Origin: Sabellastarte sp. h YS-2021
Lineage: Eukaryota > Annelida > Polychaeta > Sabellida > Sabellidae
Length of the DNA stretch: 64,000 nucleotides
Assembly: GCA_964017235.1 (NCBI GenBank)
Contig: OZ024927.1
Coordinates: 57,417,293 to 57,481,292, forward strand
Direction: 5' to 3'
Under the pieces are notes generated by a model that saw only the letters and a list, made by a program, of their open reading frames with translations, did no database searches and was not told the DNA's origin. Of this stretch, positions 9,153 to 62,285 are shown in pieces (position 1 is the stretch's first letter; every line of letters begins with the position of its first letter). The position numbers and the translations under genes were made by a program.

Positions 9153-9466
9153 TACTCTCCTCTACAGGAGGATCTATAACAGCATGTTGGGCATTGGTGA
9201 CAAGATCTACAGAACACAAGTGACCTACACAAGAAACATTTCTCACATATTTTATTTTTGTGTACATTTGACAAAAGGTGGGATTTACGCCTTTCCTTTG
9301 TGGCAACCCGGTGACAATATGAGCATTTGCAACATGTGAGTCTACATTGAAATTTAAAGTCACTTTGCTGTTCTTGGAAACCACTGGTGCTGGGTTCAAG
9401 CCTCCCTGACCGGTGACATGTACAGAGTTCTTCTGACCGGTCACAGAATTTACACAATGATTGTCA
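9104..9466 (-). CDS. Readthrough stop (UGA-CAA-UCA) and Cys-rich domain of DIRS1
   Basis: The gag stop TGA (9464-9466) is followed by CAATCA (9458-9463), which fits the CAR-YYA leaky-stop consensus. The frame continues with no ATG into about 118 codons rich in cysteine: CKFCDRSEELCTCH, TCCKCSYCHRV, then CEKCFLCRSLVFCRSCHQC. This looks like a multi-zinc-binding domain conserved in DIRS2, 3 and 6. The frame closes at 9104 after an indel near 9160 relative to DIRS6. Expression by readthrough is inferred; internal initiation would need a non-ATG codon. Confidence 0.6.
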
Positions 9467-20970: not shown

Positions 20971-22361
20971 GTCTGATTGAAGGGCTGTGTCAACAGATTG
21001 GGCAGGTTGGGTAGGCTGAGAGGGACCTGGCTGGGCATGGTCACCAAGTCCCAAAACCAAGGCATGTTGGGCCAACCCGGAGCAATCAGAATGAATCTCT
21101 TGCAAGGGGAGTCCAGTAGTTTCTCCACCACTTTGCTCAATATGGCAGTCGGTGGGAAGGCGTATGCGTCCAGATCCTCCCATGGCAGAGTGAGTGCATC
21201 CACTGCTACAGCCAGGGTGTCCGGAACTGGAGAGACAAAGTGAGGTAACTTGTGGTTGAACCTCGTGGCAAATAGGTCTATCTGAGGCCGGTGCCACTTG
21301 CTGCATAGTCTTTGGAAAATGTCCGGAAGGAGGGACCATTCTGTTTGAATGGTTTGATTTAGCCTGGATAGCTTGTCTGCTATCACATTTAGTCGGCCAG
21401 GGATATGCCGGGCTTTGAGGGTTACTTGTCGCTGGGAACACCAGGTCAAGATTCTCCACAGTAGGGCACAGAGAGGGCCCGACTTCATGCCTCCTTCTTT
21501 GTTTATGTAGGCCACTACAGTGGTATTGTCTGTGGCCACTAGGACTATTTGGTTTGTGCATAGGTCCTGAAACTCTTTCAAAGCCAAGAAAACTGCTTTT
21601 AGCTCCAGGTGATTTATGTGCAGCTTGCTTTCCGGAACTGACCAGGAACCCCTTGCAGTGAGCTCGTTTAAGTGAGCGCCCCATCCTTCTTTTGATGCGT
21701 CTGTAAAAATTTGCAGAGCATGCTTTATGGGGTGTAATGGTTGACCTTGAAGCACATTGCTTTCTTCTAGCCACCATTGTAAATGTGGGTGCAGGGATCT
21801 GGGTAGAGGGATGACCTTCTCTAGAGATTCCGGTACCCTCCAATTGTTCTTGAGATGCCACTGTATGGGTCTCATGTGCAACCGGCCTAGGTGAACTTGT
21901 TTCTCTGTGGCAGTTAACAGACCTATCAAGGACATGAACTGTCGGACCGGACAGGCCGGTAGTAACAGCAGTGTTTGTATTTTCCCTTGAAGGTTTTGGG
22001 TCCGGCCCCCAGTTCTAGCCAAGTTTCCCAGAAGTTTTGAAGTCTGGCCCCTACAGGCGGACTTTGGGCAACATTTGGTACATTTGAGACAGAAGTGGCA
22101 AGAGACAATGGAGTGACACACAAAGCACTTTTCACAGATTTTAATTTGTAATCTTTGGTAGTACAAACTGCTGGCCCGGGACTTAAATCTTTCTTTTGCG
22201 ATTGCCCGGACGCAGTAGTGACAGAATGAGCAACAGGAACTTTTACATTTAAAAGGCCTCTTGTCTGTTGATGAGCTTTTACATTTAAAAAGTCTCTTGT
22301 CTGTTGGTGATGTGGGCTCCCGGCCAGCAGTCGTATAGGGAGCTTGTTTAAACTGTAACTG
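20766..22361 (-). pseudogene. Cys-rich and RNase H/methyltransferase ORF of DIRS2, RT deleted
   Basis: After the gag stop the frame runs on through a Cys-rich domain (CEKCFVCHSIVSCHFC, CTKCCPKSACRG). About 20 residues later it joins directly to PVRQFMSLIGLLTATEKQ, just upstream of RNase H. The RT body including YxDD is missing, a deletion of roughly 0.8-0.9 kb compared with DIRS3. RNase H (FTDASKEGWG, LELKAVFLAL, ATDNTTVVAYIN) and methyltransferase-like (AYAFPPTA, APGWPNMPWFW) parts remain open to 20766. The deletion fused the Cys-rich frame to the RNase H frame. Confidence 0.82.
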
Positions 22362-22364
22362 TCA
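22356..22364 (-). promoter_or_regulatory. Leaky-stop motif UGA-CAG-UUA at the gag end of DIRS2
   Basis: Gag ends at TGA (22362-22364), preceded by AAA and followed by CAGTTA, an exact CAR-YYA match. The downstream frame is open into the Cys-rich domain with no ATG before it. Confidence 0.6.
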
Positions 22365-25559: not shown

Positions 25560-25780
25560 TGGAAAATTTAATAGTAAATTAAATTTTTATAAGTTAATAC
25601 CTTACCTAGTGGACAGATGCATTTGTCCGGCGCCCTGCCGGTCACGCCAAACGTTAGAAAAAAACGTCCTGAGCTGGGCTCTGGCCGGGACCGGTAGTGT
25701 CCTGTTCACTCGCCAGGTGGCTGTACAGCCTACCTGTCGGTATACTGCGCATGCGTGCGCATGCGCTCTTCCTCTTTTTG
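25560..25780. repeat. Left ITR of DIRS3 with NRF1-like palindromes
   Basis: Inverse complement of 32061-32259. At 25746-25766 it reads tgcgcatgcg twice with overlap, an NRF1-type motif, where other copies have TGACGTCA. Confidence 0.88.
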
Positions 25781-25850
25781 TTGTCTACCTTATGACCCCT
25801 TGTTGGTTATGATAGCGGGGAAGGTAGGGTGGGACTCCCCCTGTCCACTA

Positions 25851-25937
25851 GGTAAGGTATTAACTTATAAAAATTTAATTTACTATTAAATTTTCCATTT
25901 TATTGCGTTAATACAACTTACCTAGTGGACAGATGCA
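25851..25937. repeat. ICR of DIRS3
   Basis: Inverse left end followed by inverse right end. It carries the DIRS3-specific ctagtggacag and the shortened aatagtaaatt of this element's own ends. Confidence 0.88.
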
Positions 25938-26056
25938 GAATGACTACCCAGTGGATGGAGGGTAGCCAAACAAGGGGAACCCATAAAGATAATAGCATAG
26001 CGGGTGTGTCCGGTACTGGTTAAATAAACCAACCTTAAAAGGACTAAACACCCTGG

Positions 26057-26065
26057 CCCCCCCCC
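26057..26065 (-). promoter_or_regulatory. Polypurine-like run of DIRS3
   Basis: Coding strand GGAAAAATCA followed by nine G; same position as in other copies. Weak alone. Confidence 0.3.
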
Positions 26066-26246
26066 TGATTTTTCCACAGGAAAAACAGCCTGTGCACCAA
26101 TTCGACCCAAATGTGCAGGGAGACTAATGAGGGCATGAACTAACAATTCATGAATGAGGAAGAAGAACAGGAGCAAGGAAATACCATCCTTGATAAGCTC
26201 CTGGGTCCACTTTGGATCATGGCTATCCAGTAGCAAAGGATAGTCG

Positions 26247-26247
<1 letters not shown>

Positions 26248-26276
<29 letters not shown>
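26248..26276 (-). repeat. A-tract in the 3' UTR of DIRS3
   Basis: About 28 A on the coding strand, roughly 55 nt downstream of the recombinase stop. T runs occur at similar places in DIRS1, 2 and 6. A Pumilio-like TGTATATA lies at 26305-26312. Confidence 0.55.
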
Positions 26277-26279
<3 letters not shown>

Positions 26280-26328
26280 ACTAAACCCAAAAACATGTGT
26301 ACACTATATACAGTCAGCCATAAGACCA

Positions 26329-29300
26329 CTACTGATGTTCGTGGATCTGCTGAGCCGCTACCACAGGACCTAGGTGGTACAACTCGGAATCTGCCCAGGC
26401 TAGGTCCTTCAGGTAGAATTGTGTAAAAGTGTTGTGTGCCTTCCAATGGCAAGCTGATAGGATCTGGTCCAAGGAAACCCCGCCCTGGAAAGCTTTGGAA
26501 GCGGCAAAAGCCTGTACATCATGAGCTCGGACTTGATGCATATTTTGAGCCTCATGATCAGAAAGTTGATAACACAACAACACAGTTTGCTTGATCCAGG
26601 AAGAGATAGTAGCCGGAACAATATCCTTCTGAAAACTCTTCCGGAAAGATACAAACACCAGATCTTTGCCCGAACGCAAGTCCTTGGTTCTGTCTAAATA
26701 GTAACGCAAGGCCCTGACCGGGCAAAGAGACTTGTCCTCCTTGAGTGACCTGTCCAATGATGGAGCCAACGCGGGAATGACAACCGGAGCCACAGCAGAA
26801 GGTCCGTCCCGCGCTAGCTGATTCTTCGACAGAAAACTGGGAGAGGGATATAATGAGACCTGACTCCAGTTCTCCTGATGCCTGATGTTGCGGTATAACC
26901 ATGCATGGATTTCGCTCCTCCTTTTGCCGGAACCCAAAGCCAAGAGGAAAACCGTCTTAAAGGTCAAATGTTTAAGCGAGGCCTTCCGCATGGGTTCGAA
27001 AGGAGCTTTGGTCAACTGGTGGAGCACTAATGAAAGATTCCACGCAGGGACTCCCCGCCTGCCTTTCGGCTTGTCTCTATGGAAACTGTCCAACAAGCGA
27101 GTTAGGCTTTCATCCTTGCCAAAATGAACCGGGTCGTTGCCCAACATATCGGCAATAGCTGTTCTATAGCCTTCTATAGTACTGGGTTGTAACTGTCTCT
27201 CCTTAAAGAGATACAACAAGAAATCGGCCACTTGTTTCAGAGAGGGCGCCCTGAAGTCCACCTGGCTGGATTCGCACCACTTAACAAAAATGGCCCACTT
27301 TGACTTATAGACCGCTCTGGTTGAACTTCTCTGAGGAGCCTCAATTCTTGCTGCCACCTCCTCAGAGAACCCTTGTCGCCTGATGGACGAGGCTCTAGGA
27401 GCCAAGCATGCAGATTCAGATGATTCAAGTTCCTGTGGAGAAGGCCGTTGAACGGTTGAGTCAATAGATCCCTCTCTAAGGGAAGACTGAAGGGAATTTG
27501 ACTTGATAGAGTGATCAGGTCCCAAAACCAAGGCATGTTGGGCCAACCTGGAGCGATTAAGATCATTCTGTGAAATTCTTGATTCACCAATTTGGATGTG
27601 ACCTGACTGAGCAGGGAGACTGGGGGAAAGGCGTACACGGTCAGGTTGACCCATGGAAGGCTGAGAGCATCCACCGCCCAAGCTGTCGAATCTGGAACTG
27701 GAGAGACAAACTTGGGAAGCTTGTGATTGAATCTGGTGGCAAAAAGATCTATCTGTGGCTGGCCCCAGTTGGAACACAAGCGATTGAACACCTGTTGGGA
27801 CAGGCACCACTCGGTCTGGATCACCTGATTGTGCCGGGACAGCTTGTCTGCTATGACATTCAGTCGACCCGGAATGTGCCTGGCTCTCAGAACTATTTCT
27901 CTGGGATGGCACCAGGAAAGGAGTCTCCAGAGGAGGGCACAAAGAGAGCCTGATTTCATACCCCCTTGTTTGTTGATATAGGCGACCACAGTTGTGTTGT
28001 CGGTCGCCACCAAGACAATCTGGTTCAGGCAGAGAGGTTCGAAACTCTTGAGGGCCAGAAAAACTGCCTTGAGTTCCAAGAAGTTGATATGAAGTCGACT
28101 TTCTACGTCTGACCAAACGCCTCTTGCCGTAGAGTCCCCTAAGTGAGCGCCCCAACCTTCGTTTGATGCGTCGGTAAACAGTTGAAGGGCGTGACTTAAT
28201 GGATGTAAGGGTTGGCCCCTTAAAACATTTTCCTCGTCTAACCACCAATCTAGGTGAGGTTGCAGAGAGGGAGGTAGCGGAATGACTTTCTCTAGGACCT
28301 CGGGCACCCGCCAGTGTCTTTTTAGGTGCCACTGAATGGGACGCATGTGGAGACGACCTGACCTGACCTGTTTCTCGGTGGCTGTCAAGAGTCCTATCAA
28401 GGACATGAACTGCCTTACCGTGCACCTGTCCCGGGTCTTTAAAAACAACAGTTTCTGACGCAAGCTTGCCCATCTTTCTTGAGTTGGTAAAACCCGACCC
28501 GTCAACAGGTCGAACCGGTAACCGACGAAGGTAAAGACCTGTTGAGGATTCAGTTCCGACTTTTTGAGGTTGACTAGCCAGCCCAGTTCGTGGCAAAGTG
28601 ACAAAAGAACCTGTGTGTGAAGGAGACCAATCTCCCTCGAAGGGGCTCTCAGTAACCAGTCGTCTAGGTACTGGTGGATTCTTATACCCCTGTTCTGAGC
28701 CATAAGTTTCACCTCCTTGACTATCTTGGTGAACTCTAGAGGGGCCGTGGCCAACCCGAAGGGAAGGGCAGTGAACTGGTACGCTCTTTTGTTGAGAAAG
28801 AATCTCATGTACTTCCTCGACCGGGGGTGAATAGGGATGTGAAAGTATGCGTCGCTGAAATCCAGCGAGGTCACCCACTCCCCTTTCTGTAGCGAGGTCC
28901 GGATGGTTTCCGGAGTTTCCATCTTGAATGTGCCGGTTTTGAGGAACTTGTTCAACCGACTCAGATCTAAAATAGGCCTCCACTTGTTTTCCGGTTTGGG
29001 TACTAAAAACAGCCGGTTGTAGAAGGCGAGAGAAGACCGGACCAAGACTGGTTCCACTACCAACTTTCCTTGGAGAGAGATCAGTGCCTCTTTGAGGAAA
29101 CGGCTTTTTACCGGATTGGCATAACTGCTCTGAATGATTGGAACCCTGGTGAGAGGAGGTCTTAATCTGAATGGCAGGCTGTAACCCTCCTTTAGAATGG
29201 ACACTGCTCGAGGGTTTGCGCCTAACCTTTGCCAAACTTGCCAAAACTTTTGAAGACGGCCTCCTACAGGACCATCGTGCACAACAGTGGGGACACCTTG

Positions 29301-29733
29301 AACATTTTGGACAAAAAGACATGGATCGACACAAGAAACACTGTTCACATGCTTTATTTTTCTCAACACTGGTACGGGACTTAGACCTTTCTTTTGCGGA
29401 AGCCCGGTGGTAGGTACAGAAGGAGCATGAGTTGCAACATGAAAGAACACATCCTGATTTACATGATCTACTTGCCTCATGGGAAAGTCTGGATTCTGAG
29501 ATGTGCGGGGTCTTGAACCTGTCTGAACTGAAGCCAGTAATTGACCCGAACTTTTTGTTAACATGTCTTTTAATGTCTCTTGAACACTGGAACCGGCCAT
29601 TTCCGGTGGAACTTGACTTAACTTTGAACAAAGAACTGGTTTGTGACAAACTACCTTGACTAAGTTTAGAGTCTGTTTTCTGCCCAACCGATTTAATGTC
29701 TTGACTACAGAGGTTGGGTTGTAATGGTAACTG
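26329..29733 (-). CDS. Cys-rich + tyrosine recombinase readthrough frame of DIRS3 (~1,134 codons)
   Basis: This frame starts right after the gag TGA (29734-29736) and is the gag frame. It runs without a stop to 26329. The first ~140 codons have no ATG before the Cys-rich domain (CKSGCVLSCCNSCSFC, CEQCFLCRSMSFCPKCSRC). The middle overlaps the RT/RNase H gene, which is read in the +1 frame. The last ~360 codons are the recombinase: EEVAARIEAPQRSS, Arg in KRRSEIHAW (~26917), CHW, and Tyr in FYLKD (~26415). The HxxR box reads HDVQ: CAG at 26512-26514, versus Arg in DIRS1 and DIRS6, likely a CpG transition and probably inactivating. Whether the middle is translated is inference; DIRS elements are known for overlapping RT and YR ORFs. 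Confidence 0.72.
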   Translation of the reverse strand, partial: QLPLQPNLCSQDIKSVGQKTDSKLSQGSLSQTSSLFKVKSSSTGNGRFQCSRDIKRHVNKKFGSITGFSSDRFKTPHISESRLSHEASRSCKSGCVLSCCNSCSFCTYHRASAKERSKSRTSVEKNKACEQCFLCRSMSFCPKCSRCPHCCARWSCRRPSSKVLASLAKVRRKPSSSVHSKGGLQPAIQIKTSSHQGSNHSEQLCQSGKKPFPQRGTDLSPRKVGSGTSLGPVFSRLLQPAVFSTQTGKQVEAYFRSESVEQVPQNRHIQDGNSGNHPDLATERGVGDLAGFQRRILSHPYSPPVEEVHEILSQQKSVPVHCPSLRVGHGPSRVHQDSQGGETYGSEQGYKNPPVPRRLVTESPFEGDWSPSHTGSFVTLPRTGLASQPQKVGTESSTGLYLRRLPVRPVDGSGFTNSRKMGKLASETVVFKDPGQVHGKAVHVLDRTLDSHRETGQVRSSPHASHSVAPKKTLAGARGPRESHSATSLSATSPRLVVRRGKCFKGPTLTSIKSRPSTVYRRIKRRLGRSLRGLYGKRRLVRRRKSTSYQLLGTQGSFSGPQEFRTSLPEPDCLGGDRQHNCGRLYQQTRGYEIRLSLCPPLETPFLVPSQRNSSESQAHSGSTECHSRQAVPAQSGDPDRVVPVPTGVQSLVFQLGPATDRSFCHQIQSQASQVCLSSSRFDSLGGGCSQPSMGQPDRVRLSPSLPAQSGHIQIGESRISQNDLNRSRLAQHALVLGPDHSIKSNSLQSSLREGSIDSTVQRPSPQELESSESACLAPRASSIRRQGFSEEVAARIEAPQRSSTRAVYKSKWAIFVKWCESSQVDFRAPSLKQVADFLLYLFKERQLQPSTIEGYRTAIADMLGNDPVHFGKDESLTRLLDSFHRDKPKGRRGVPAWNLSLVLHQLTKAPFEPMRKASLKHLTFKTVFLLALGSGKRRSEIHAWLYRNIRHQENWSQVSLYPSPSFLSKNQLARDGPSAVAPVVIPALAPSLDRSLKEDKSLCPVRALRYYLDRTKDLRSGKDLVFVSFRKSFQKDIVPATISSWIKQTVLLCYQLSDHEAQNMHQVRAHDVQAFAASKAFQGGVSLDQILSACHWKAHNTFTQFYLKDLAWADSELYHLGPVVAAQQIHEHQ

Positions 29734-29990
29734 TCATTTTTGTTGTTTAAATCCACGGGAGCGAGAGAAACGGGGATTACTACTACGACCCCTTCCTCTT
29801 GATCTTCCCCTGCCCCGAGCAAACTGTCGCCATGGCTGATTCGGTTCAGCTGAAGCTGTATTCCTAGAATCCCGGCGATCATAGGGCTGGAACCTATTTG
29901 GGTTTCGCCAACCAGTGCGCTGCATAGCACCCGGACCGGGTCTTGGAGCAGCACTGGTGGTTTCAGACTTGGTAATATCCTGTTCTGCAA
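27237..29990 (-). CDS. RT / RNase H / methyltransferase ORF of DIRS3, open (917 codons)
   Basis: Open from 29990, within the 3' end of gag, to 27237. RT: WRPILDLSRLN, DFSDAYFHIPI and YLDDWL at about residues 441-446. RNase H: FTDASNEGWG (~607), LELKAVFLAL, ATDNTTVVAYIN (~661). Methyltransferase-like: DALSLPW, YAFPP (~786), APGWPNMPWFW (~811). The frame has no ATG at its opening and is +1 relative to gag and the Cys-rich frame, so expression may need frameshifting or internal initiation. Its last ~180 nt overlap the YR domain. All RT and RNase H catalytic residues I looked for are present. Confidence 0.88.
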   Translation of the reverse strand: MQNRILPSLKPPVLLQDPVRVLCSALVGETQIGSSPMIAGILGIQLQLNRISHGDSLLGAGEDQEEGVVVVIPVSLAPVDLNNKNDSYHYNPTSVVKTLNRLGRKQTLNLVKVVCHKPVLCSKLSQVPPEMAGSSVQETLKDMLTKSSGQLLASVQTGSRPRTSQNPDFPMRQVDHVNQDVFFHVATHAPSVPTTGLPQKKGLSPVPVLRKIKHVNSVSCVDPCLFVQNVQGVPTVVHDGPVGGRLQKFWQVWQRLGANPRAVSILKEGYSLPFRLRPPLTRVPIIQSSYANPVKSRFLKEALISLQGKLVVEPVLVRSSLAFYNRLFLVPKPENKWRPILDLSRLNKFLKTGTFKMETPETIRTSLQKGEWVTSLDFSDAYFHIPIHPRSRKYMRFFLNKRAYQFTALPFGLATAPLEFTKIVKEVKLMAQNRGIRIHQYLDDWLLRAPSREIGLLHTQVLLSLCHELGWLVNLKKSELNPQQVFTFVGYRFDLLTGRVLPTQERWASLRQKLLFLKTRDRCTVRQFMSLIGLLTATEKQVRSGRLHMRPIQWHLKRHWRVPEVLEKVIPLPPSLQPHLDWWLDEENVLRGQPLHPLSHALQLFTDASNEGWGAHLGDSTARGVWSDVESRLHINFLELKAVFLALKSFEPLCLNQIVLVATDNTTVVAYINKQGGMKSGSLCALLWRLLSWCHPREIVLRARHIPGRLNVIADKLSRHNQVIQTEWCLSQQVFNRLCSNWGQPQIDLFATRFNHKLPKFVSPVPDSTAWAVDALSLPWVNLTVYAFPPVSLLSQVTSKLVNQEFHRMILIAPGWPNMPWFWDLITLSSQIPFSLPLERDLLTQPFNGLLHRNLNHLNLHAWLLEPRPSGDKGSLRRWQQELRLLREVQPERSISQSGPFLLSGANPARWTSGRPL
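29728..29736 (-). promoter_or_regulatory. Leaky-stop motif UGA-CAG-UUA at the gag end of DIRS3
   Basis: Gag ends AAA TGA, followed by CAGTTA, matching CAR-YYA exactly. Downstream the frame is open for over 1,100 codons. Confidence 0.65.
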
Positions 29991-31943
29991 TACATATCAG
30001 GTCATCAGGGAAGAGACCATAGTTGAACAATGGGGCATTCCTAAGTCGATTCCAGGTGTCAGACTTCACTCCAGACTTTACATGATCTAAATAAGAATCA
30101 CGTCTAAGAAGCACAAGATTTGCCATGTTGACGAAAAGGCTATCAGCTAGGTGCTGCAATGAAGTTCCCATGGCAATGGAGACATTTTGATGGAAAGCTA
30201 GATAGTCTTTCAGGTCGTGAAGAGCCTCTGACACTTCTTTGGGGGCCTTCCCTTTATTGAAATTCGACTGAAGGCACACTAAGCTCCGATTCATCCGATC
30301 CTGCAGTTCACTAGCACATCTGTTAAAGCCTGCTGCCTGGTTGACAATGTAGCTGCCTTCCTTGGCATTCCGTTCCCATCGACGTAGATACTCTTGGGAA
30401 ATAGGTCGTGAGACAGGACCAGAAGGCGGGTAGGAAGAGGCCTTGGTAATACGTGGAAATTGTGAATTAACTTTTGCCTCGGTGTTCCTCCAACTAAAAA
30501 CAGACTTGCCAGGACGCGGAGTAGTGTCAGGTCTGAGGGTGTGCATCTGATACCAACGCGCTTGCGATTTTGGCATTTTAAGGAACTGATCCTTCTTCAA
30601 CCCACTTGAGTCTTGACTTCTAGAGGGATAACCCTCAGCAACTGTAGTATTTAAGCGTTCAAGTTTTTGACATAACCAGTCGTCTGGTGGCATAGCCACA
30701 GACACACGAGCTGGTCTCCTGGGAACCTTCCCCTTCCAAGGGTTGTTGCTCTTGTCGGGCTCACTGAAATCAGCCTCAAAAACCGGGATATGATTCCATC
30801 CCATAAAGGATCTGACAGACCGGACCGTCTCACGGTAATTCATATCCTCTGTAACTTCTTGTTTCTCACCAGTATCCGACAGTTCCCCTTCATCAGGTTC
30901 AGAAGCTGAGTAACGCTCACTTTCTTCCGGTTCATATGGCAGATCAGAACACACACTAGCCTGTGAATAATCTTCCGGACCGGTTCTGTAACTAGCACTG
31001 GCCTGAGAGTAACAGGGAGCCGGACCGGTAACTGACAGTTCCTTTGTCGGTGGACCGGTTGACTGGCCAGCCGGATGAGAGACAGGTGCTTTGGCTGGTA
31101 GAACTTGAGAGCCGGTGTCGGTCATGTCTTCAGCGGGTGCCTGTGCTGAACTTGTAGGTAGTTGTTTTGAACCGACCGGATGTAAGTCAGCTGTAAGTTC
31201 TTGCTTGTCGGTGGGTTTCCCAGAATGTTTACCGGAGTGTCGGTGGGACTTCTTGTGTTTGTGAGATTTTTTCTTGTCCGGTTTAACATCAGACCCGTTA
31301 CCATCTACAGATTCTGCCGGATGCCACACCGGACCGGTGGGTCGGGCAGAAGAAGGGTCAATGAAAGGAGTATCTGATAGCACCTTTTGAGCAGAAATTG
31401 GTTTAACTGGCATAGAGGGAGCAGTGAAAATGTTACCTCTTGAGAGAAGAGCCTCAAATCTGGCAAACTGCTCAGACATCTTGTCAGATAATGTGTTTGT
31501 GAGATTTTTGCAACTAACTGACCCGAAGTGACATAAGAGGCGTCTGACGTAGAAGCAGAAGACGCGGCAGGTGCCTGCGTGGAAGGCTGCGCAGAGGGTT
31601 GAAAATCCGGTGCTGACTGCGCAGAAGGCTGCGCAGAAGAGTTCTCTGTCGGTGCGTCAGCAGACGACAAGTCTTCCACCGGAGAAAGAACTGTCACCTC
31701 TTTGGGGGACACTAGCAATCCTGCTTTCCTTTCCTTTCTTATTCTATAAGATGGAGTAGACAAAGTTTCCTTTTGCGCATCGGAAAACTGGTCACATAAT
31801 GAGCAAGGTTTGTCCTTAACACACGGGTCCTCCCCCAACTTCTTTTCCCTACATCTTGCACAGCGTTCGTGAAGATCGAACGCAGCCATTATATGTCCGC
31901 AAGCGCCCCTGCGTTGCCCCTTAAAATCTCCAGGGGATGCCAT
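29734..31943 (-). pseudogene. gag-like ORF1 of DIRS3, one homopolymer slip
   Basis: ATG at 31943 (MASPGDFKGQRRGACGHIMAAFD). The N-terminal zinc-like motif is followed by an Ala/Pro/Ser/Gln-rich linker (QPSAQ repeats). The frame is lost by one missing base in an A run near 31510 and regained in MSEQFARFEALL (31479), then open for 581 codons to TGA at 29734. The C-terminus is Arg/Gly-rich (GRGRSRGRGRSS), suggesting RNA binding. The slip may be an assembly error, in which case this gag is intact. Confidence 0.8.
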
Positions 31944-32060
31944 GAATATTCAGTAACAATTTGATATGAAAATAATGTCACTTTAAAATGTCTATCCAAC
32001 TCTAAAATGTAAAACGTCTCTTTGTAAATCTTTTGACAACTTTTTTAAAATGGCGCCAAA

Positions 32061-32259
32061 CAAAAAGAGGAAGAGCGCATGCGCACGCATGCGCAGTATA
32101 CCGACAGGTAGGCTGTACAGCCACCTGGCGAGTGAACAGGACACTACCGGTCCCGGCCAGAGCCCAGCTCAGGACGTTTTTTTCTAACGTTTGGCGTGAC
32201 CGGCAGGGCGCCGGACAAATGCATCTGTCCACTAGGTAAGTTGTATTAACGCAATAAAA
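32061..32259. repeat. Right ITR of DIRS3
   Basis: Inverse complement of 25560-25780. NRF1-like double palindrome gcgcatgcgcacgcatgcgc at 32074-32093. Terminal gcaataaaa. Confidence 0.88.
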
Positions 32260-35897: not shown

Positions 35898-38800
35898 CAC
35901 TCTAAGGGCCACTTGTGGTTCTGCTGAGCAGCCCAACACCCGGCCCAATTGGTAAAGCTCCGAGTCAGCCCAAACCACACCCTTCAGAAAGCACTGTGTG
36001 AAGGTATTGTGACTTCAGTGGCAGGCTGACAAGATTGGATCTAAGGAGACTCCCGACTGGAAGACCTTAGAAGCAGCAAAGGCACTGACATCATGGGCTT
36101 TAACCTGATGTCAAGTGTGGGCCTCCTGGTCAGAGAGCTCATAACATAGGATCACAGTCTGCTTGATCCAAGAGGAGATAGTGGAAGGTGAGATGTCTTG
36201 TTGAAACCTTTCTTAAAGGAGACAAGAAACACCTCTTAATTCTGCCTGATGTCTGAGGTCCTGTCCAAATAGTAGCACAGTGCTCTGACCGGAGAGAGGG
36301 ACCTGTCAGACTTGAGGGATCTATCCAGAGTTGGGGGCCAGGGCTGTTATAACCCCAGGGCCACACTGTCTGGACCCTCTATGGCCAGCTGATTCTAGGA
36401 TAGAAAGCTGGGTGATGGATACAGAGACACCTTTGACCAATCGGATTGGTGTCCAACATATCAGTTTTGCCAAGCATGAATCTCACTTCTGCACTTGCCC
36501 GACCCAAGGGCCAAGAGGAATACCGTCTTGAAGGTCAAATGCTTCAAGGGGGCCTCCTTGATTGGATCAAATGGAGTCTTAGCTGGTGCACGGCCAGTGA
36601 GAAGTTCCAGGAGGGTATGCCACTCCTGCCTTTGGGTCTGTCTCTGAGGAAACTATCCAGGAGACGAGCGAGATTTTCGTCCTTACTGATGTTGAAAAGT
36701 GAATTTCCCAATTTATCAACAATGGATGACCTATAACCATCAATGGTGCTGGGCTGTTTGCCAAGCATGTATCTCACTTCTATGCTTGTCCGAACCCAGG
36801 GCCAAGAGGAAAACTGCCTAGAAGGTCAAAAGCTTCAAGGAAGCCTTTAATTGGTTCAAAATGAACCTTGTCAGCTGGTGCAAAAACCAGGGAGAGGTTC
36901 CAGGAGGGGGTTCCCCTCCGGCCTTTGGGTCTGTCTCAGTGGAAGCTATCCAGGAGACGAGTGAGATTTTCATCCTTAGTAACATTGATGGGCAAATTTC
37001 CAGGCTATCAGCAATGGCTGATCTGTAACCAACAATAGTACTGGGCTGCAACTTCCTGTCCTGAAACAGGTACCTAAGGAAGTCAGCAACTGACTTTACA
37101 TGTGGAGCCCGAAGTACACCTGATGAATGATACATCACTTGGTAAAAATGACCCATTTGCCTCATAGACTGATCTGATTGACCCCTCCTTTGAGGAGCCT
37201 CAATTCTTGCTGCCACTGCCTCAGACAAGTCCTGCTCCTCGATTGCTGAGGCTCTAGGAGCCCTGCATGGAGATTAAGATTTGTCAGATTTCTGCGAGGG
37301 ATCTGATCGAATGGCTGTGAACAGGCTGGACTTGGGCAGGCTCAGCGGGATGTGGCTGGACATGGCCACTAGATCCCAAAACCAAGGCATGTTGGGCCAC
37401 CCCGGAGCAATCAGAATGATTCTCTTGCATGGGGAGTCTTGCAACTTCTCCACCACTTGCCCAATATGGCTGATGGTGGGAAGGTGTATGCTTTCAGATC
37501 CTACCATGGCCGACTGAGTGTATCCACTGCTGTGGCCAGGGGATCCAGTACCGGTGACACAAACAGAGGCAACTTGTTGTTGAACCTCATAGCAAATAAG
37601 TCTATTTGAGCCGGTGCCACCTGCTGCAGATTGAGTGGAAGACCTCTGGAAGGAGAGACCACTCTGTTTGGATGGTCTGGCCTAGCCTGGATAGCTTGAC
37701 CGCTACCACATTCAGCCGGCCTGGAATGTGTCGGGCTTAGAGTCACTTGTTTCCTGGTACACCAGGTCAAGATTCTCCATAGTAGGGCACATGTGGGCCC
37801 GACCTCATGCCTCCTTCCTTGTCTATGTATGACACTACTGTGGTGTTGTCAGTTGCTACAAGTACTATCTTGTTTGAGCAAAGTTCTTGAAACTCTTTTA
37901 AAGCCAGGAAGCCTGCTTTAAGTTCTAGATAGTTATGTGCAGCTTGCTTCCCGGGAGGGACCCGGTTCCTCCTGCCGTGTGCTCGTTTAAGTGAGCGCCC
38001 CACCCTTCTATTGATGCGTCTGTAAATATTTGCAGAGCATGCTTTATTGGGTATAATGGTTGGCCTGTAAGTACATCATCTTCCTTCAGCCACCATTGTA
38101 AATGGGGTGCAGGGACCTGGGGACTTGGATCACCTTTTCCAGTGATTCTGGTACCCTCCAGTTGTTTTGAGATGCCACTGTATGGGTCTCATATGAAGTC
38201 GACCTAGATTAACTTGCTTTTCTGTAGCCGTCAGTAACCTATCAAGGACATGAATTCCCGGACCGGGCAAGCCGGTAGGGAAAGCAGTTTTAACATAGTC
38301 TCTTGAAGGTTCTGTCACCGGTCCAGAGTCGGTCGGAACCGATCAGACCTGAAGTCGAACTGGTAGCCTACAAAATCAAGGTCTTGTTTGGGCTCCCGCT
38401 CTGATTTCTGTAAGTTCATCAGCCAACCCAGTGGCTGACACATTATTTACTAGTTCCTGTGAATGTTGGAGACAAGCCTGGGATCTGGCTCTCACCAACC
38501 AGTCGTCTAGGTACTGGTGGCTTCTAAAGTCCTTGTGTATGGTCACAAGTTTTACCTCCTTTGGTATCACAGTGAACTCCAAAGGTGCTGTGGACAAAAC
38601 CGATTAGCAGGCATTACCTGGATTGTTCTTGTATAGGTATATGGGAGTAGGTATCCCTCCTTGAACATTTGTAATACCTAGTGTCCAGCCCCCAAGGCTT
38701 CCTAAGTTCCCGAAAAGGGGCTTAGTCTGGACCCTACAGGCCGATTGTGTGCCACATTTGGGACATTTGGTATTTTGATAAACATTTTCTGTCCCTCCGG

Positions 38801-38947
38801 ACACTGGTCCGGTCTGGTGACAATGATCCAGGTTAACAGTCTCTCTGTTCTTATTGTGGTCTGGTGGGACTGACACAACTTTTCATATTAATAGACTCTT
38901 CGCCCCGGGCCAGCAGCCTGCAAGGTGCAGCATTTACAGAGCAATTG
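35898..38947 (-). pseudogene. Degenerate pol (YR, methyltransferase, RNase H, RT) of DIRS4
   Basis: Fragments recognised in order along minus: RT with YLDDWLVRA near 38500; RLHMRPIQWHL near 38190; RNase H ATDNTTVVSYID near 37850; methyltransferase-like APGWPNMPWFWDL near 37390; recombinase AVAARIEAPQR near 37200 and later pieces to about 35900. Frames change many times. A segment of the recombinase around KLQPSTIDGYRS is present twice (about 36570-36750 and 36870-37060), a local duplication. Non-functional. Confidence 0.8.
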
Positions 38948-38950
38948 TCA
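38942..38950 (-). other. Decayed leaky-stop site of DIRS4 (UGA-CAA-UUG)
   Basis: The remnant of the gag end reads GAA TGA CAATTG; the last base departs from CAR-YYA, in line with decay of this copy. Confidence 0.5.
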
Positions 38951-39304: not shown

Positions 39305-40035
39305 GCAGCATTAATTAGTAAGGACTGTGTAGCCAGCACCCTGTTAGTAGATTTGTAACCCGTATGTTGAAGCAAGTGTACTAGGCTGTGTCGCCAATAC
39401 CAGTCGGTACACTCTGTAACCATTTGTTGAAGCAAGTGTACTAGGCTGTGTAGCCAGTACCAGCCGGTACACTGTGTAATCAGTGTTGAAGGAAGCAAGT
39501 GTACTAGGCTGTGTAGCCAGTACCAGCCGGTACACTGTGTAATCAGTTGTTGAAGCAAGTGTACTAGGCTGTGTAGCCAGTACCAGCCGGTACACTCTGT
39601 AACCAGTTGTTGAGGCAAGTGTACACGGCTGTGTAGCCAGTACTAGCCGGTACACTCTGTAACAGTTGTTGGTCTATATTTAGTTAGTTTATGTAACTAG
39701 TTGGGTGAAAAAAACAGCACAGTAAGGACTGTGCAGCCAGTGCCCTGCCGGTAGACTTGTAACCGGTAGGTTGAAGCTATATGTAGCCAATTGCTAAAGT
39801 AAGTGTACAAGGCTGTATAGCCGGTACCGGCCGGTAGACTCTGTAACCAGTTGTTGAGGCAAGTGTACACGGCTGTGTAGCCGGTACAGGTCGGTACACT
39901 CTGTAACCAGTTGTTGAGGCAAGGGTATAAAGGCTGTGTAGCCAGTATTGGTCGGTGCACTCTGTAACCAGTTGATGAAGCAAGTGTACAAGGCTGTGTA
40001 GTCGGTGCACTCTGTAACCCATTGCTAAAGCAATT
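39305..40035. repeat. 60-bp tandem repeat in place of gag, DIRS4
   Basis: About nine or ten units with a 60-bp period in two blocks (39345-39665 and 39770-40035). Unit text: aagcaagtgtac-aggctgtgtagcc-gtacc-g-cggtacactctgtaacca-ttgttg. The period of 20 codons gives long repeat ORFs (LATQPSTLAS...) that I do not treat as genes. Rich in ccggtac palindromes. Also seen in DIRS5. Confidence 0.8.
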
Positions 40036-46200: not shown

Positions 46201-46240
46201 GGCCAGTATCCTGCAAGGTGCAGCATTTACACAGTAATTG
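43207..46240 (-). pseudogene. Degenerate pol of DIRS5
   Basis: Fragments in order: RT YLDDWLVEA near 45480; RLHMRPIQWHL near 45150 with the Cys-rich part near 46030; RNase H and methyltransferase remnants between 45000 and 44380; recombinase from about 44230 to 43210. Many frameshifts and stops. Several small deletions are shared with DIRS4, for example tgacttcagtg where DIRS1 has gagacttccagtg. Non-functional. Confidence 0.8.
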
Positions 46241-46243
46241 TCA
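46235..46243 (-). other. Leaky-stop motif UGA-CAA-UUA remnant of DIRS5
   Basis: CAC AAA TGA CAATTA, an exact CAR-YYA match retained where the gag C-terminus is otherwise lost. Confidence 0.55.
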
Positions 46244-46734: not shown

Positions 46735-47135
46735 AGATTGAAACCATATGTAGCCAATTCTTAAAGCAAGTGCACAAGGCTGTATAGCCGGTACCGGTCA
46801 GTACACTCTGTAACCATTGTTGAAGCATGTGTACAAGGCTGTATGGCCGGTACTGGTTGGTACACTCTGTAAACAGTTGTTAAAGCAAGTGTACAAGGCT
46901 GTGTAGCCAGTACTGGTCGGTAAACTCTGCAACCGGTTGTTAAAGCAAGTGTACAAGGCTGTATAGCCGGTACTGGTCGGTACACTTGCCTGTAACCAAT
47001 TGCTAAAGCAAGTGTACAAGGCTATGTAGCCGGTACCGGTCGGTACACTCAGTATCTAGTTCTTGAAGCAAGTGTACAAGGTTATGTAGCCGGTACCGGT
47101 CGGTACATTCTGTAACCAGTTGCTAAAGCAATTTT
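46735..47135. repeat. 60-bp tandem repeat in place of gag, DIRS5
   Basis: About six units, 60-bp period, same unit as in DIRS4 with tagccggtaccggtcggtacac as the most regular part. Confidence 0.8.
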
Positions 47136-47274
47136 ACAACTATCTTTTGTGTTGAATTCAGCTAGTTGTAGGTTTCCTCAATTAATAAAAGCATTTCTTT
47201 AATCGCACGTCTTTTTTCGTAGATTTGACAGTTGCTGGGAAAGCCCTTGTGAGCTATATTTAGAAGCACTTGTT

Positions 47275-53257: not shown

Positions 53258-53594
53258 CTATTTCTCCCAACACTGGTTTAACCTCGCCCCTACAGGAGGA
53301 TCTAAAACAGCATGTTGAGCATTGGTGACAAGATTTACAGAAGGCAAGTGACCTACACAAAAAACATCTTTCACATATTTTATTTCTGTGTATAATTGAC
53401 ATGCATTGGGATTTACGCCTTTCCTTTGCGGCAACCCGGTGAAAATATGAGCATTTGCAACATGAGAGTCTACATTTAAAGTCACTTTGCTGTTCTTCTG
53501 GTCTGGCACTGGAGGTGGGTTCAAACCCTCCATCTGGTCGGATACAATTACAGAGTCCTTCACTCCGACCACATTTGAAACACAATAATTGTCA
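53258..53594 (-). CDS. Readthrough stop (UGA-CAA-UUA) and Cys-rich domain of DIRS6
   Basis: Gag ends AAA TGA (53592-53594), followed by CAATTA (53586-53591), an exact CAR-YYA. Within three codons the cysteines begin: LCFKCGRSEGLCNCI, then CRLSCCKCSYFH and CERCFLCRSLAFCKSCHQC. No ATG precedes the domain in this frame. The frame stays open past 53258 until the indel near 53030. Confidence 0.65.
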
Positions 53595-56199: not shown

Positions 56200-58300
56200 T
56201 ACTTCCAAAAGCTAATCACTAGTTGTTTCACTTATATCTGTCTTTAAAAATTACATTTCATGGATCCAGAAGATCCATATAGTGATCCGGATCGCTTCCA
56301 AACCTCAATCATTTCATCCTTTTCAGACATATTCTAAAAATTTCATCGAAATCCATCCATAAGTTTTTGAGTTATCTTGTACACAGACACATGTGGCAGC
56401 CTGGATCCACATGATCCAGACAGTGATCCAGATTACTCCCAAAATCTAATCACTTGTTCTTTGTCCCATTTAAGACATTTGCTGAAAATTTCATAAAAAT
56501 CCATTCATGACTGAGCTATTTGTCTTTAAAATTACATTCACGGATCCAGAAGATCCAGATAGTGGTCCAGATCACTCGCAAAATTGAACCATTTCTTCCT
56601 TTTACCACTTCTTCCTTTTACCATTTGTAACATATCCTGAAAATAGTAAAATCCATTCCAAGCTTATGTGCAAGCCTGGATCCAGATGATCCAGATCACT
56701 CCAAAAATGTAATCACTATCTGTCTTAAAAAATTACATTTCATGGATCCAGAAGATCCATATAGTGATCCGGATCACTTCCAAAATTCAATCATTTCATC
56801 CTTTTACCACTTCTTCCTTTTACTATTTGTAACATAGCCTAAAAATATCATCAAAATTCATCGTAAAATCATGTTGCAGGCTCAATCCAGATGATCCAGA
56901 CGGTGATCCAGATCATTCCAAAAGTATAATCACTTGTTCCTTGTACCATTTATGTCATTTGCTGAAAATGTAATCACAATGCATCCATAACTTTTTGAGG
57001 TATGTCTTATTACATTTCACGGATCCAGAAGATCCATACAGTGATCCGGATCACTTCCAAAATTCAGTTATTTCATCCTTTTACCTTTTCAGACATATCC
57101 TGAAAATTTCATCAAAATTCGTCCATAAGTTTTTTTGCTACAATGTACACAAACACATCTGGCAACCTGGATCCAGATGATCCAGATCACTCCCCAAATC
57201 TAATCACTTGTTCCTCGCACCATTTAGGTCATTTGCTGAAAATGTCATCACAATCCATCCATAACTTTTTGAGGTATCTGTCTTATTACATTTCATGGAT
57301 CCAGAAGATCCATATAGTGATCCGGATCACTTCCAAAATTCAGCCATTTCATCCTTTTACCTTTTCAGACATATCCTGAAAATTTCATCAAAATCCGTCC
57401 ATAAGTTTTTTTGCTACAATGTACACAAACACATCTGGCAACCTGGATCCAGATGATCCAGACAGTGATCCAGATCACTCTCCAAATCTAATCACTTGTT
57501 CCTCGCACCATTTAGGTCATTTGCTGAAAATGTCATCACAATCCATCCATAACTTTTTGAGGTATCTGTCTTATTACATTTCATGGATCCAGAAGATCCA
57601 TATAGTGATCCGGATCACTTCCAAAATTCAGCCATTTCATCCTTTTACCTTTTCAGACATATCCTGAAAATTTCATCAAAATCCGTCCATAAGTTTTTTA
57701 GCTACAATGTACACAAACACATCTGCAACCTGGATCCAGATGATCCAGATCACTCCCCAAATCTAATCACTTGTTCCTCGCACCATTTAGGCCATTTGCT
57801 GAAAATGTCATCACAATCCATCCATAACTTTTTGAGGTATCTGTCTTTAAAAATTACATTTCATGGATCTAGAAGATCCATATAGTGATCTGGATCACTT
57901 CTAAAATTCAACCATTTTATCTTTTTACCTTTTCAGACATATCCTGAAAATTTCATCAAAATCCGTTCATAAGTTTTTGAGCTATATTGTACACAAACAC
58001 ATCTGGCAGTCTGGATCCAGATGATCCAGACAGTGATCCGGATCACTCCCAAAATGTAATCACTTGTTCCTCGTCCCAATAAGGACATCTCCTGAAAATT
58101 TCATCAAAATGCACCCATAATTTTTTGAGCTATCTGTGTTTAAAAATTAAATTTCATGGATCCAGAAGATCCAGACAGTGATCCGGATCACTCCCAAAAT
58201 TTAATCACATCTTCCTTTTACCAATTTGGACATATCCTGAAAATTTTATCAAAATCCGTCTGTCAGTTTTTGAGTTATCTTGTTTACAAACAAACAAACA
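56200..58300. repeat. Satellite of ~143-bp half units (~286-bp dimers)
   Basis: About 14 half units alternating two types: ggatccagaagatccatatagtgatccggatcac and ggatccagatgatccagacagtgatcc, each followed by a conserved block (cctgaaaatttcatcaaaat, ccataagtttttgag). The higher-order period is 286 bp (57296 to 57582). Open frames such as HTSGNLDPDD come from the repeat. It ends in acaaacaaacaaac, common at the ends of such arrays. Confidence 0.8.
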
Positions 58301-59052: not shown

Positions 59053-59695
59053 AAATAGCCCAGACAAGATTACCTAGGTCATACGTCAAATCAAGACTAC
59101 ACCATGATGATGCACACCTACAACCCCCAACCAATATCCGTACTAAGTATCAACTTCTTACACCTTAGAGTTTCTGAGATATAGCCCGGACAAGATTTTA
59201 TAGGTCAAGGTCATTACGACAAGGTTAAAGGTCAAACAGAGGTCACGCTATGACGTTCCACACCTACACCCCCTAACTAATGTCCCTACCAAGTATCAAC
59301 TTCCTACACCTTACAGTATCCAAGATATAGCCCAGACAAGATTTTATAGGTCAAGGTCACTACGGCAAGGTCAAATCAAGGTCACACCATGACGTTACAC
59401 ACTTACAACCCCTAACCAATATCCCTACCAAGTATCAACTTCCTACAGCTTACCAGATATAGCCCGGACAAGATTTTCAAACTCAAGGTCACTACGGCAA
59501 GGTCAAAGGTCAAATCAAGGTCACACCATGACATTGCACACCTACACTTCCTAACCAATGTCCCTACCAAGTATCGACTTTCTGCACCTTTTGGTTTCTG
59601 AGATACAGCCCGGACAAACTTTTTCCTGCCGCCCGCCCGACCGGACACCATGGGTGAAAACAAAACCCCGACAGCCCTTAAGGGCTGTGAGGTAA
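59053..59695. mobile_element. Helitron-like minisatellite element, copy D (left-truncated)
   Basis: About four core units, then cagcccttaagggctgtgaggta. The left terminus is absent; it abuts the hairpin end at 59050. Confidence 0.6.
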
Positions 59696-59730: not shown

Positions 59731-62285
59731 GAGGAGAGTGCCCGTGAACGGGCACTGTGTCAGCTGACTGAGTGTTTTTGATTTGTGAAGGTGATTAGAG
59801 GACAGAATAATTATCAGGAAAAGGGCTGTACAGAAATACAGTAAATGGTAACGGAACAGCAAGTTCGAAAGAAATTCCGAAGCTGACAGAAGAAAAGGAT
59901 AAAAAAGTTGTGCCCTGTAAATGGTATTATGAAGGAAAATAACAAGGTAATTGTTTAAGTGTAAAAAATAGGTTAAAACATATTTAAAGAAATACTACAA
60001 ATGCAATATCCTCGTTCGACCTTGAAGAAGGGGTCCAAGGTCAAATCTAACCACACAAATACATTCCCTGCCCATGATTTCCTATGGTTTACCATTCCAA
60101 ACCTCTAGGACCAATTATAAATGAGTTATAAGCACTTTTAAGCTTGGCTGTCCTCATTTGACCTTGAAGGAGGGGTCCAAAGGTCAAATCTGACCATACC
60201 AAAAGATTCCGAGCCAATGATTTCCTATGGGATGGTTTACCATCCCAAATCTCACCAATAATAAGCGAGTTGTAGGCACTTTCAATTTTCGCTATCCTCA
60301 TTTGACCTTGAAGGAGGGTTCCAAGGTCAAATCGGACCATATCAACAGATTCACAGCCCATGATTTCCTGTCTGTTTACCATCCCAAACCTCTGGGACCA
60401 ATAATAAGCGAGTTATAAGCACTTTTAAGTTTGGCTATCCTTGTTTGACCTTGAAGGAGGGGTCATTGAAGGTCAAATCTGACCACACCAAAAGATTCCC
60501 ACCCCATGATTTCCTACAGGTTGGTTTATCATCCCAAACCTCTAGGATCAATAATAAGGGAGATATAAGCACTTTTCATGACTGACAAAAAACACCTGTG
60601 GCGGCCATCTTGTTTCTCAAAATGAGGCCAAAAATATTCCCAGACAACATTTTATGGTTATTAATATATACTGCAAACTTAAGAAAGCTAGCTATAATAT
60701 TTTTTTTCATCAGAGCAGTAATGGTGAAATCTCTCTCTACACACTGCGGCTATCCAGTGGATACAATGATTTACTCAACAGTGAGAACCTGAAAGTAGCT
60801 ATTGCTCAGCTATGCCATGACATAGAGGTCTGCAATTTCACTATGTTATAGCTGACCAAAAATTCTGTGAATAACATATTTAACAAATTACTCTAAATGT
60901 AATAGTTTTCAAGTTACAACTGATTTACTCAACAGTGAGAACCTCAAAGGAACTATTACTCAGCTATGCAATGAGCTACATGTCTGAAATTTTACTATGT
61001 TATAGCTAACCCAAAAGTAGGTGAACAACATATTTAAGCAAACTACTGTAAATGCAATAGTTTTCAAGCTACAACTGATTTACTCAATAGTGAGAACCTG
61101 AAAATAGCTATTGCTCCGCTATGCCATGAGCTATAGGTCTGTAATTTCACTATGTTATAGCTGACCCAAAAGTAGGTGAACAATATATTTTAACAAAATA
61201 CTCCAAATACAATATTTTTCAAGTTATAGCTGATTTACTCAACAGTCAGTACCTGAAAATAGCTATTGCTCAGTTGTGCCATGAGCTATAGGTCTATAAT
61301 TTCACTATGTTATAGCTGACCCAAAAGTAGCTGAATAACATATTTGCACAAATTTCTGTAAATGCAATAGTTTTCCAATTATAACTGATTTACTCAACAG
61401 TGAGAACTTCAAAGTAGCTATTACTCAGCTATGAAATGAGCCACAGGTCTGAAACTTCACTATGTTATAGCTGACCCCAAAATAGGTGAACAACATATTG
61501 AAACAAAATACTCTAAATGCAATAGTTTTCAAGTTATAAGTGATTTACTCAACAGTGATAACCTAAAAGTAGCTATTACTCAGCTATGCCATGAGCTACA
61601 GGTCTGAAATTTTACTATGTTATAGCTGGCCCAAAAGTAGCTGAATAACATATTTATACGAAATTCTCTAAATGCAATAGTTTTTAAGTTACAAGTGATT
61701 TTACTCATGATGGAAGTTACTGAAAAGCCCAAAAGTAGCTATTACTCACTTAGCTATTGAGACAGACACCCAACTTACTCACCATATTGTAGCTATGAAG
61801 AAAGTAGCTGAACAACATATTTTCACAAAATGCTGTAAATGCAACACTTTTGAAGTTATAAGTGATTTAGTGCATGATTTCATGAATTTTAATGCATTAA
61901 AAATTATTATAAAAATTTATTAAAAAAAAGTAAGACAGATCCAGGTCTCATACTCACACAAGAGAATCTACCTCTGGCCTAGTACATATATGCAAGATAT
62001 GAGAGAAATCCCTGCAATAGTCACTGAGAAAATTGTGATAAAAAGTTGAAATTTTCACACTTTTGGTGGGAGTACCCCCCTTGTAATGTCTCTAGCAAAC
62101 AGACGAACAGACAGATTTGCATGCCTTGAACAATTTTTCATCCTCGATAGATAAGGTATCTTTTAAAAAAAACAGCATGTCTCTAGGCCTTGTAGTTTTG
62201 GAGAAGAAGTTGTTCACGCGTACGCCCACGCCGCAGAGTGATGACATAATGTCAGCTGACTGACAAGTCAGCTGACATAAAAAAC
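59731..62285. mobile_element. Composite repeat element with two minisatellite arrays
   Basis: Left end has the hairpin gtgcccgtgaacgggcac and gtcagctgactgag; the right end has gtcagctgactgacaagtcagctgac. Between them are a ~150-bp array (59990-60570, gaccttgaaggaggggtcca...) and a ~156-bp array (60765-61880, about seven units of gatttactcaacagtgagaacc...). No coding capacity. Single-element status is inferred from the shared gtcagctgac at both ends. Confidence 0.5.

Follow-up and report, generated by a model that had tools for sequence, protein, structure and literature searches.

A putative stop codon readthrough signal at the end of gag in DIRS retrotransposons of a sabellid genome

What the stop codon at the end of gag does in DIRS retrotransposons is the question raised by a 64,000-nucleotide stretch of the Sabellastarte sp. 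genome (assembly GCA_964017235.1, contig OZ024927.1, positions 57,417,293 to 57,481,292; hereafter the window). The window holds six DIRS copies (D1 to D6), and all coding features given below are on its minus strand. An earlier note on this DNA had proposed that the gag-end UGA is a leaky stop within a longer coding frame. Comparison with further copies lends support to this proposal through the conservation of the site, selection on the frame that follows it and, in most lineages, a covarying hairpin. With high probability the gag end carries a real, selected recoding signal, and readthrough is likely to be the main action of this signal.

The gag-end stop and its sequence context

The TGA that the earlier note had placed at the gag end was found there in all six window copies. 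It was followed by CAATCA in D1 (TGACAATCA, 9458-9466), by CAGTTA in D2 (TGACAGTTA, 22356-22364) and D3 (TGACAGTTA, 29728-29736, with the UGA at 29734-29736 and the hexamer at 29728-29733), by CAATTG in D4 (TGACAATTG, 38942-38950) and by CAATTA in D5 (TGACAATTA, 46235-46243) and D6 (TGACAATTA, 53586-53594). The hexamer thus matched CARYYA exactly in five of the six, with D4 deviating as had been claimed, and the codon before the stop was AAA in five of the six, D3 included, and GAA in D4. D4 and the gag of D5 are decayed; in both the gag body upstream is broken, and their gag stop was assigned by homology. The mere count of the nine-base motif was rejected as a signal, the window containing 9 matches against 6.6 expected and 19 of 100 shuffles reaching 9. 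Since the motif is not rare by count, the signal lies in its position.

The genome that was sampled comprises 1.79 Gb in 647 contigs and includes the window. Gag searches with D3, D1, D2 and two fetched copies (L026 and L027) each gave the best 131 of 25,779-29,292 candidates, samples of the nearest copies. From these we fetched 80 pieces meant to cover the site, of which L083 was mis-aimed and left out; the remaining 79 were combined with the six window copies, giving 85. An intact gag end is common to the pieces because they were picked from gag matches. Sites were located with the pattern TGACARYYR; 4 loci did not fit it and were inspected by eye.

Conservation of TGA-CAR-YYA in further copies had been set as a check by the earlier note, and within this genome it was observed: TGA with CARYY(A/G) was kept in 82 of the 85 aimed copies (76 of 79 fetched, 6 of 6 in the window) and exact CARYYA in 80 of the 85. 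Among the 82 matching copies the hexamers were CAGTTA (34 copies), CAATTA (27), CAATCA (19), CAATTG (1) and CAGTTG (1), and AAA stood directly before the stop in 79. The three aimed copies without the site had a TGA changed to TTA (L018), a regional deletion (L048) and a loss of TGACA (L082). By eye, no other stop or hexamer was seen in place of the site at the 4 pattern-negative loci. When the copies were grouped into 23 sequence clusters and the stop was numbered 1-3, positions -2, -1, 1-5 and 7 were invariant, position 9 varied once and positions 6 and 8 varied only within R and Y, respectively; entropy at positions 10-27 was 0.26-1.95 bits, mostly above 1.

The codon choice at the site does not follow ordinary codon use, since AAA made up 86 of 201 lysine codons and TTA 28 of 220 leucine codons when the C-terminal part of gag was counted in 10 copies. 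TTA (Leu) and TCA (Ser) interchange at YYA, TTG was found in 2 of the 82 copies and CTN in none, so the variation tracks the readthrough consensus and not the amino acid.

Open frames longer than 780 codons were present in 9 of the 655 rows of the five gag match lists, among which some copies are repeated. At least three of these rows were fusions past the gag stop, each a single copy (L048, L071 and L082), and L018 (786 codons) ran only briefly past its altered stop in the match listed. The fusions in L018 and L048 enter the frame of gag, and those in L071 and L082 seemingly the +1 frame. L071 retains the site; directly upstream of it a single base is apparently missing, so that its gag would be in the +1 frame.

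Reading frames downstream of the stop

For five lineages, represented by one copy each, the frame of gag (the zero frame) remained open for 1071-1134 codons after the UGA, running through a Cys-rich domain and the entire reverse transcriptase (RT)/RNase H region, which is coded in the +1 frame, and ending in the tyrosine recombinase (YR). The earlier note had described a longer frame with a Cys-rich domain after the stop; the Cys-rich domain was right, and the description was incomplete in that the frame continues to the YR and in that it mentioned neither the +1 RT/RNase H on the same DNA nor the hairpin. In D3, gag occupies 29737-31656 (640 open codons, first ATG at 31479) and the zero-frame extension 26332-29733 (1134 open codons). 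Within the extension the Cys-rich domain lies at 29260-29451 (codons 94-157 after the stop, a position supported by the near-identical copy L009), a passive linker crosses RT/RNase H, and the YR ends the frame (26332-27312). The +1 frame of D3 extends for 831 codons after the stop (27240-29732), with the conserved part of RT/RNase H starting at about 29267.

Over the RT/RNase H span (766-831 codons) the zero frame contained no stops in L009, L026, L032, L051 and L067. In 2000 shuffles of each that were synonymous in the +1 frame, mean zero-frame stop counts were 30-44 and minima 16-25, and the third frame over the same span held 55-71 stops. L020, in which the +1 frame is open for only 316 codons, also had no zero-frame stops (shuffle mean 17.5), and L027 had one (shuffle mean 41.2). 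As a check for selection bias, we examined the 21 fetched copies with a +1 frame open for at least 760 codons, out of 58 with the site; the zero-frame count was 0 in 13, 1-2 in 3 and 17-80 in 5. Indels that swap the frames seem to account for the last five.

Normalised nonsynonymous to synonymous ratios (N/S) were obtained for all 10 pairs of five lineages, with no correction for repeated hits. In the RT/RNase H span they were 0.20-0.32 in the +1 frame and 1.82-2.45 in the zero frame, and in the YR they were 0.09-0.21 in the zero frame. The Cys-rich domain gave the mildest of the three regional signals (zero frame 0.50-0.86, +1 frame 1.11-2.26). The zero frame thus stays free of stops even where its amino acid sequence is unconstrained, which argues that ribosomes must cross this region in the zero frame.

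No ATG precedes the Cys-rich domain, as the earlier note had stated, in any of the 8 copies with a recognised domain (the six lineages, L023 and D6); in the other 3 of the 11 copies scanned the domain was not recognised. The first zero-frame methionine in all 8 readable copies was inside or after the domain, past its first invariant cysteine. Fourteen cysteines were invariant across all six aligned domains, and a Pfam search at E up to 1 matched none of the six members. From the stop to the Cys-rich domain the lineages can hardly be aligned. The +1 RT/RNase H likewise lacks an ATG common to all lineages: there was no +1 ATG from the stop to the conserved start in L032, L051 and L067, nor in the 15 open +1 codons upstream in L026. 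Internal +1 ATGs were rejected as the RT/RNase H start, being present in some lineages only.

In all 7 copies in which both were recognised, the Cys-rich domain and the conserved RT start that follows it overlapped by two codons. At this hand-over from the zero to the +1 frame D3 carries TGTAGG (29263-29268), found also in homologues, a possible +1 site. A scan of 66 copies found 63 that fit the pattern, 43 of them with TGTAGG, and 3 with no match; the other 20 fitting copies, nearly all of the D1 family, were apparently matched elsewhere. The hexamer was considered as an invariant +1 site like that of Ty1. By our reasoning dual coding accounts for all but one of its bases, hence TGTAGG is kept as a candidate only.

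The 3′ hairpin and the structure of the elements

In most lineages a stem of 5-9 pairs with a loop of 16-24 nt begins 13-20 nt past the stop. The stem was significant (p < 0.05 against dinucleotide shuffles) in 15 of 23 clusters, with a Fisher p of 5.5e-12 that is overstated, the clusters being related and the folds having been seen before testing in overlapping data. The D3 recoding region (29677-29736) has the hairpin CCCAACC/GGTTGGG with a 22-nt loop, 15 nt past the stop; its arms are columns 19-25 and 48-54 of alignment A6. Hairpins were also present in D1 (TGACCGGT/ACCGGTCA, within 9407-9466), in D2 (GCTCCC/GGGAGC, downstream of UGA-CAGTTA) and in D6 (TGGTCGGA/TCCGACCA, within 53535-53594). 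D4 had no significant hairpin (p 0.79) and D5 only a weak stem (p 0.32).

Compensatory changes were found in two alignments of hand-chosen rows, A6 (9 members) and A7 (8 members). In the 8-pair stem of A7, D1 and D6 differ at three pairs with both sides changed, and in the 7-pair stem of A6 the D3 and X2 types differ at two pairs in the same manner. In the two alignments the true registers paired 97% and 95% of cells, against 14-56% and 0-48% for slid registers. The covariation score was reached by 1 of 500 shuffles for A6 and 3 of 500 for A7, and the number of double-changed pairs in A7 by 3 of 500. The number of further pair types was reached by 496 (A6) and 82 (A7) of 500 shuffles. Alignment A8 was left out of the count, as its two subgroups form the stem in different registers. 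Known RNA families gave no match in the window at the gathering threshold, which is no proof against a selenocysteine insertion sequence (SECIS).

The assignment of the six elements to DIRS rests on their repeats and domains. Each window element has a pair of inverted terminal repeats (ITRs) of 133-189 nt that are 97-100% complementary. Those of D3 (25601-25782 and 32059-32240) are 100% complementary, and its internal complementary region (25841-25937) consists of a 21-nt exact copy of an ITR end and a 63-nt complementary arm. The D3 RT/RNase H protein matched the Pfam families RVT_1 (1.2e-21) and RT_RNaseH (9.3e-05, 23.0 bits, just below the cut-off of 24.8); in D1, RT_RNaseH was above the cut-off (5e-06). 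The D3 YR itself matched Phage_int_SAM_1 below the cut-off of that family (0.002), and Phage_integrase was matched in all five relatives (L009, L026, L032, L051 and L067; best 1.8e-06). The R and HxxR boxes and a conserved tyrosine near the C-terminus could be aligned. A search of PDB sequences with the YR profile gave no matches at E up to 0.1. The D3 YR has Q for R in the HxxR box (26503-26526), unlike all five relatives. No methyltransferase was matched by Pfam in the D3 +1 protein at E up to 10, but RNase H is followed by a conserved, unassigned stretch; DIRS-like elements “can present” a methyltransferase, according to a Xenopus study (PMC9210276).

DIRS-like RT was extremely abundant in the genome, with 19,329 exact matches to the HQYLDDW codon pattern and none to the reversed control. 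Tandem repeats were also found in the window. Upstream of what remains of gag in D4 and D5 lie 60-nt arrays (39354-40001 and 46749-47139), D4 includes a 293-nt tandem duplication (36466-37048), and arrays with periods of 139-288 nt, some of them interrelated, lie at 56885-58271, 59076-59617, 60762-61707 and 62796-63577.

Readthrough, its alternatives and known systems

We suggest that AAA-UGA-CAR-YYA, together with a compact 3′ hairpin in most lineages, forms the signal. Most ribosomes would terminate at the UGA and release Gag, and a minority would insert an amino acid and stay in the zero frame, giving Gag joined to the Cys-rich domain (probably zinc-binding), a linker and the YR. The linker would be unconstrained, being read out of frame across RT/RNase H, and through Gag the recombinase would enter particles in a low, fixed proportion. 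That the gag-end UGA is a programmed readthrough signal with this product we consider probable. The sequences themselves show that the signal is conserved, that the zero frame is open and selected, that no ATG precedes the Cys-rich domain and that the hairpin carries compensatory changes; readthrough as the mechanism, its rate, zinc binding and delivery into particles we infer. In published work CARYYA acts on UGA and UAA is poor, which fits the use of UGA only in these elements. To reach RT/RNase H a second recoding event would probably be required, for which a +1 frameshift, either at the stop or close to where the Cys-rich domain ends, is the likeliest candidate. The +1 frame is open from the stop to the domain end but shows no depletion of stops within gag, which favours the stop as the place of the shift; the clean transition at TGTAGG favours the domain end. 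It is possible, and we offer this tentatively, that one leaky stop feeds two enzymes, readthrough giving Gag-Cys-linker-YR and a +1 shift (at the stop or at TGTAGG) giving Gag-RT/RNase H, so that all proteins of the element would come from one mRNA with one start codon.

The site could instead be mainly a +1 frameshift signal, at which ribosomes pause on AAA-UGA-C and slip to produce Gag-RT/RNase H, the zero-frame extension being made otherwise. We think this unlikely. The position of RT/RNase H in the +1 frame without a common ATG agrees with it, and UGA serves as a +1 site in antizyme (UCC-UGA; PMC9841425). Freedom of the +1 frame from stops between the gag stop and the end of the Cys-rich domain in all six lineages (shuffle product about 2e-4 if independent) also favours it, but the single-lineage tests are each weak (0.06-0.74), the final 100 codons of gag show no depletion of +1 stops, and the +1 amino acids between the stop and the domain end are not conserved. 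Moreover, CARYYA is a readthrough consensus, the selected frame in the Cys-rich domain is the zero frame and not the +1 frame, and re-pairing from AAA to AAU is in our own judgement not obvious.

Splicing, by which an intron joins an upstream ATG to the zero frame (and another to the +1 frame), would make the stop ordinary and its context coincidental. It is consistent with the lack of a common ATG near the start of either frame, but leaves the exclusive use of UGA, the AAA, the CARYYA and the hairpin unexplained; the acceptor-like TGACAG, the sole splice site examined, is present in the CAG copies only (35 of 82), and the 47 CAA copies lack it. We regard splicing as improbable. Recent common descent of the families, with the hexamer shared and functionless, appears very improbable. 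Most of the D3-family matches listed are at least 93% identical in the gag C-terminus, many of them 97-100%, whereas identity to D1 in this region is only 48% for D2 and 40% for D3, and the X types are 70-71% identical to D3. Across this range the 12 bases AAA-TGA-CARYYA are kept next to a nearly unalignable stretch, varying at R and at the second Y and, rarely, at the outermost base on either side.

Several observations weigh against readthrough. In the close pair L032-D6 the Cys-rich domain shows little contrast between frames (0.82 in the zero frame, 0.93 in the +1 frame), and an open zero frame would equally be required if it were reached by splicing, be it from gag or from the 5′ end. The stem was not significant (p > 0.05) in 8 of the 23 clusters, including L069 (X-693 type, 0.08) and L061 (D2b type, 0.46), the minimum free energy z-scores of 123-nt pieces were unremarkable (-1.37 to +0.45), and the stem begins 13-20 nt past the stop, where the usual hairpin distance is given as about 8 nt (PMC3542737). 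For A6 the number of double-changed pairs was reached by 112 of 500 shuffles, and all three double changes in A7 come from one sequence, D6. All families are from one genome and were reached through the gag of the window elements, and thus represent one clade; a search for relatives in viral and prokaryote contig collections found none. The UGA gag-pol junction of Candida Tca2 alone reportedly gave no readthrough in yeast (PMC2194720), a caution that reporters may show no readthrough at a UGA that separates two frames.

The site resembles type I viral readthrough sites (the tobacco mosaic virus class, UAG-CAR-YYA) in having CARYYA directly 3′ of the stop and As before it. It differs from them in that the stop is UGA, the host element is a DIRS and the extension ends in a recombinase after a long overlapping frame. 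In an OPRL1 UGA reporter CARYYA is reported to give about 15% readthrough, with all six bases mattering and with UGA and UAG far better than UAA (PMC4132726). Stimulation by As before the stop and action of CARYYA on UGA are also described in PMC3542737, which lists a benyvirus UAG-CAA-UUA site with a compact stem-loop. Tca2 and VdLTRE5 (Ty1/copia) share a UGA between gag and the enzyme frame of a retrotransposon. They differ from the present elements in being LTR elements, and CARYYA is absent from VdLTRE5 and reportedly also from Tca2 (PMC3441728). Antizyme, as described in PMC9841425, also uses UGA and a 3′ structure to leave the zero frame, whereas the present site has CARYYA and is followed by a zero frame that is itself under selection.

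The ITRs, the internal complementary region, the Gag, RT/RNase H and YR, the long overlap of pol and YR and the location of the YR domain in a non-overlapping 3′ end are shared with DIRS1-like elements as described in PMC3266345. Unlike these, the present elements encode Gag and YR in a single frame that UGA-CARYYA divides, the Cys-rich domain lying between the two, and D3 has no methyltransferase match in the RT frame. Long pol-YR overlaps are reported there for half of 28 DIRS1-like elements, none of them in Mollusca, and overlapping frames are also mentioned in PMC5633606 and PMC9210276. In the portions of the DIRS literature examined, how such frames are translated is not stated; the term “stop codon” is absent from the main texts of PMC3266345, PMC2685390, PMC9210276 and PMC5633606, as is “DIRS” from 300,000 of the 475,107 characters of PMC5009743, a large review of recoding. 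The earlier note knew of no described readthrough in DIRS elements, and we likewise found none among the titles and abstract beginnings listed, a coverage with subscription journals mostly outside it. The sole paper found there with both CARYYA and “retrotransposon” (PMC3441728) concerns a UGA element said to be without the motif. Readthrough signals and DIRS elements are each known, and in the literature listed their combination was not found reported.

If the proposed readthrough is correct, a retrotransposon of a eukaryotic genome would join the users of UGA-CARYYA, and readthrough at the gag end would explain the translation of overlapping frames in this DIRS clade. It would also account for a frame with free amino acids staying open for about 600 codons. 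Should one stop indeed serve two enzymes, this 600-codon “nonsense” linker would be kept solely for its freedom from stops.

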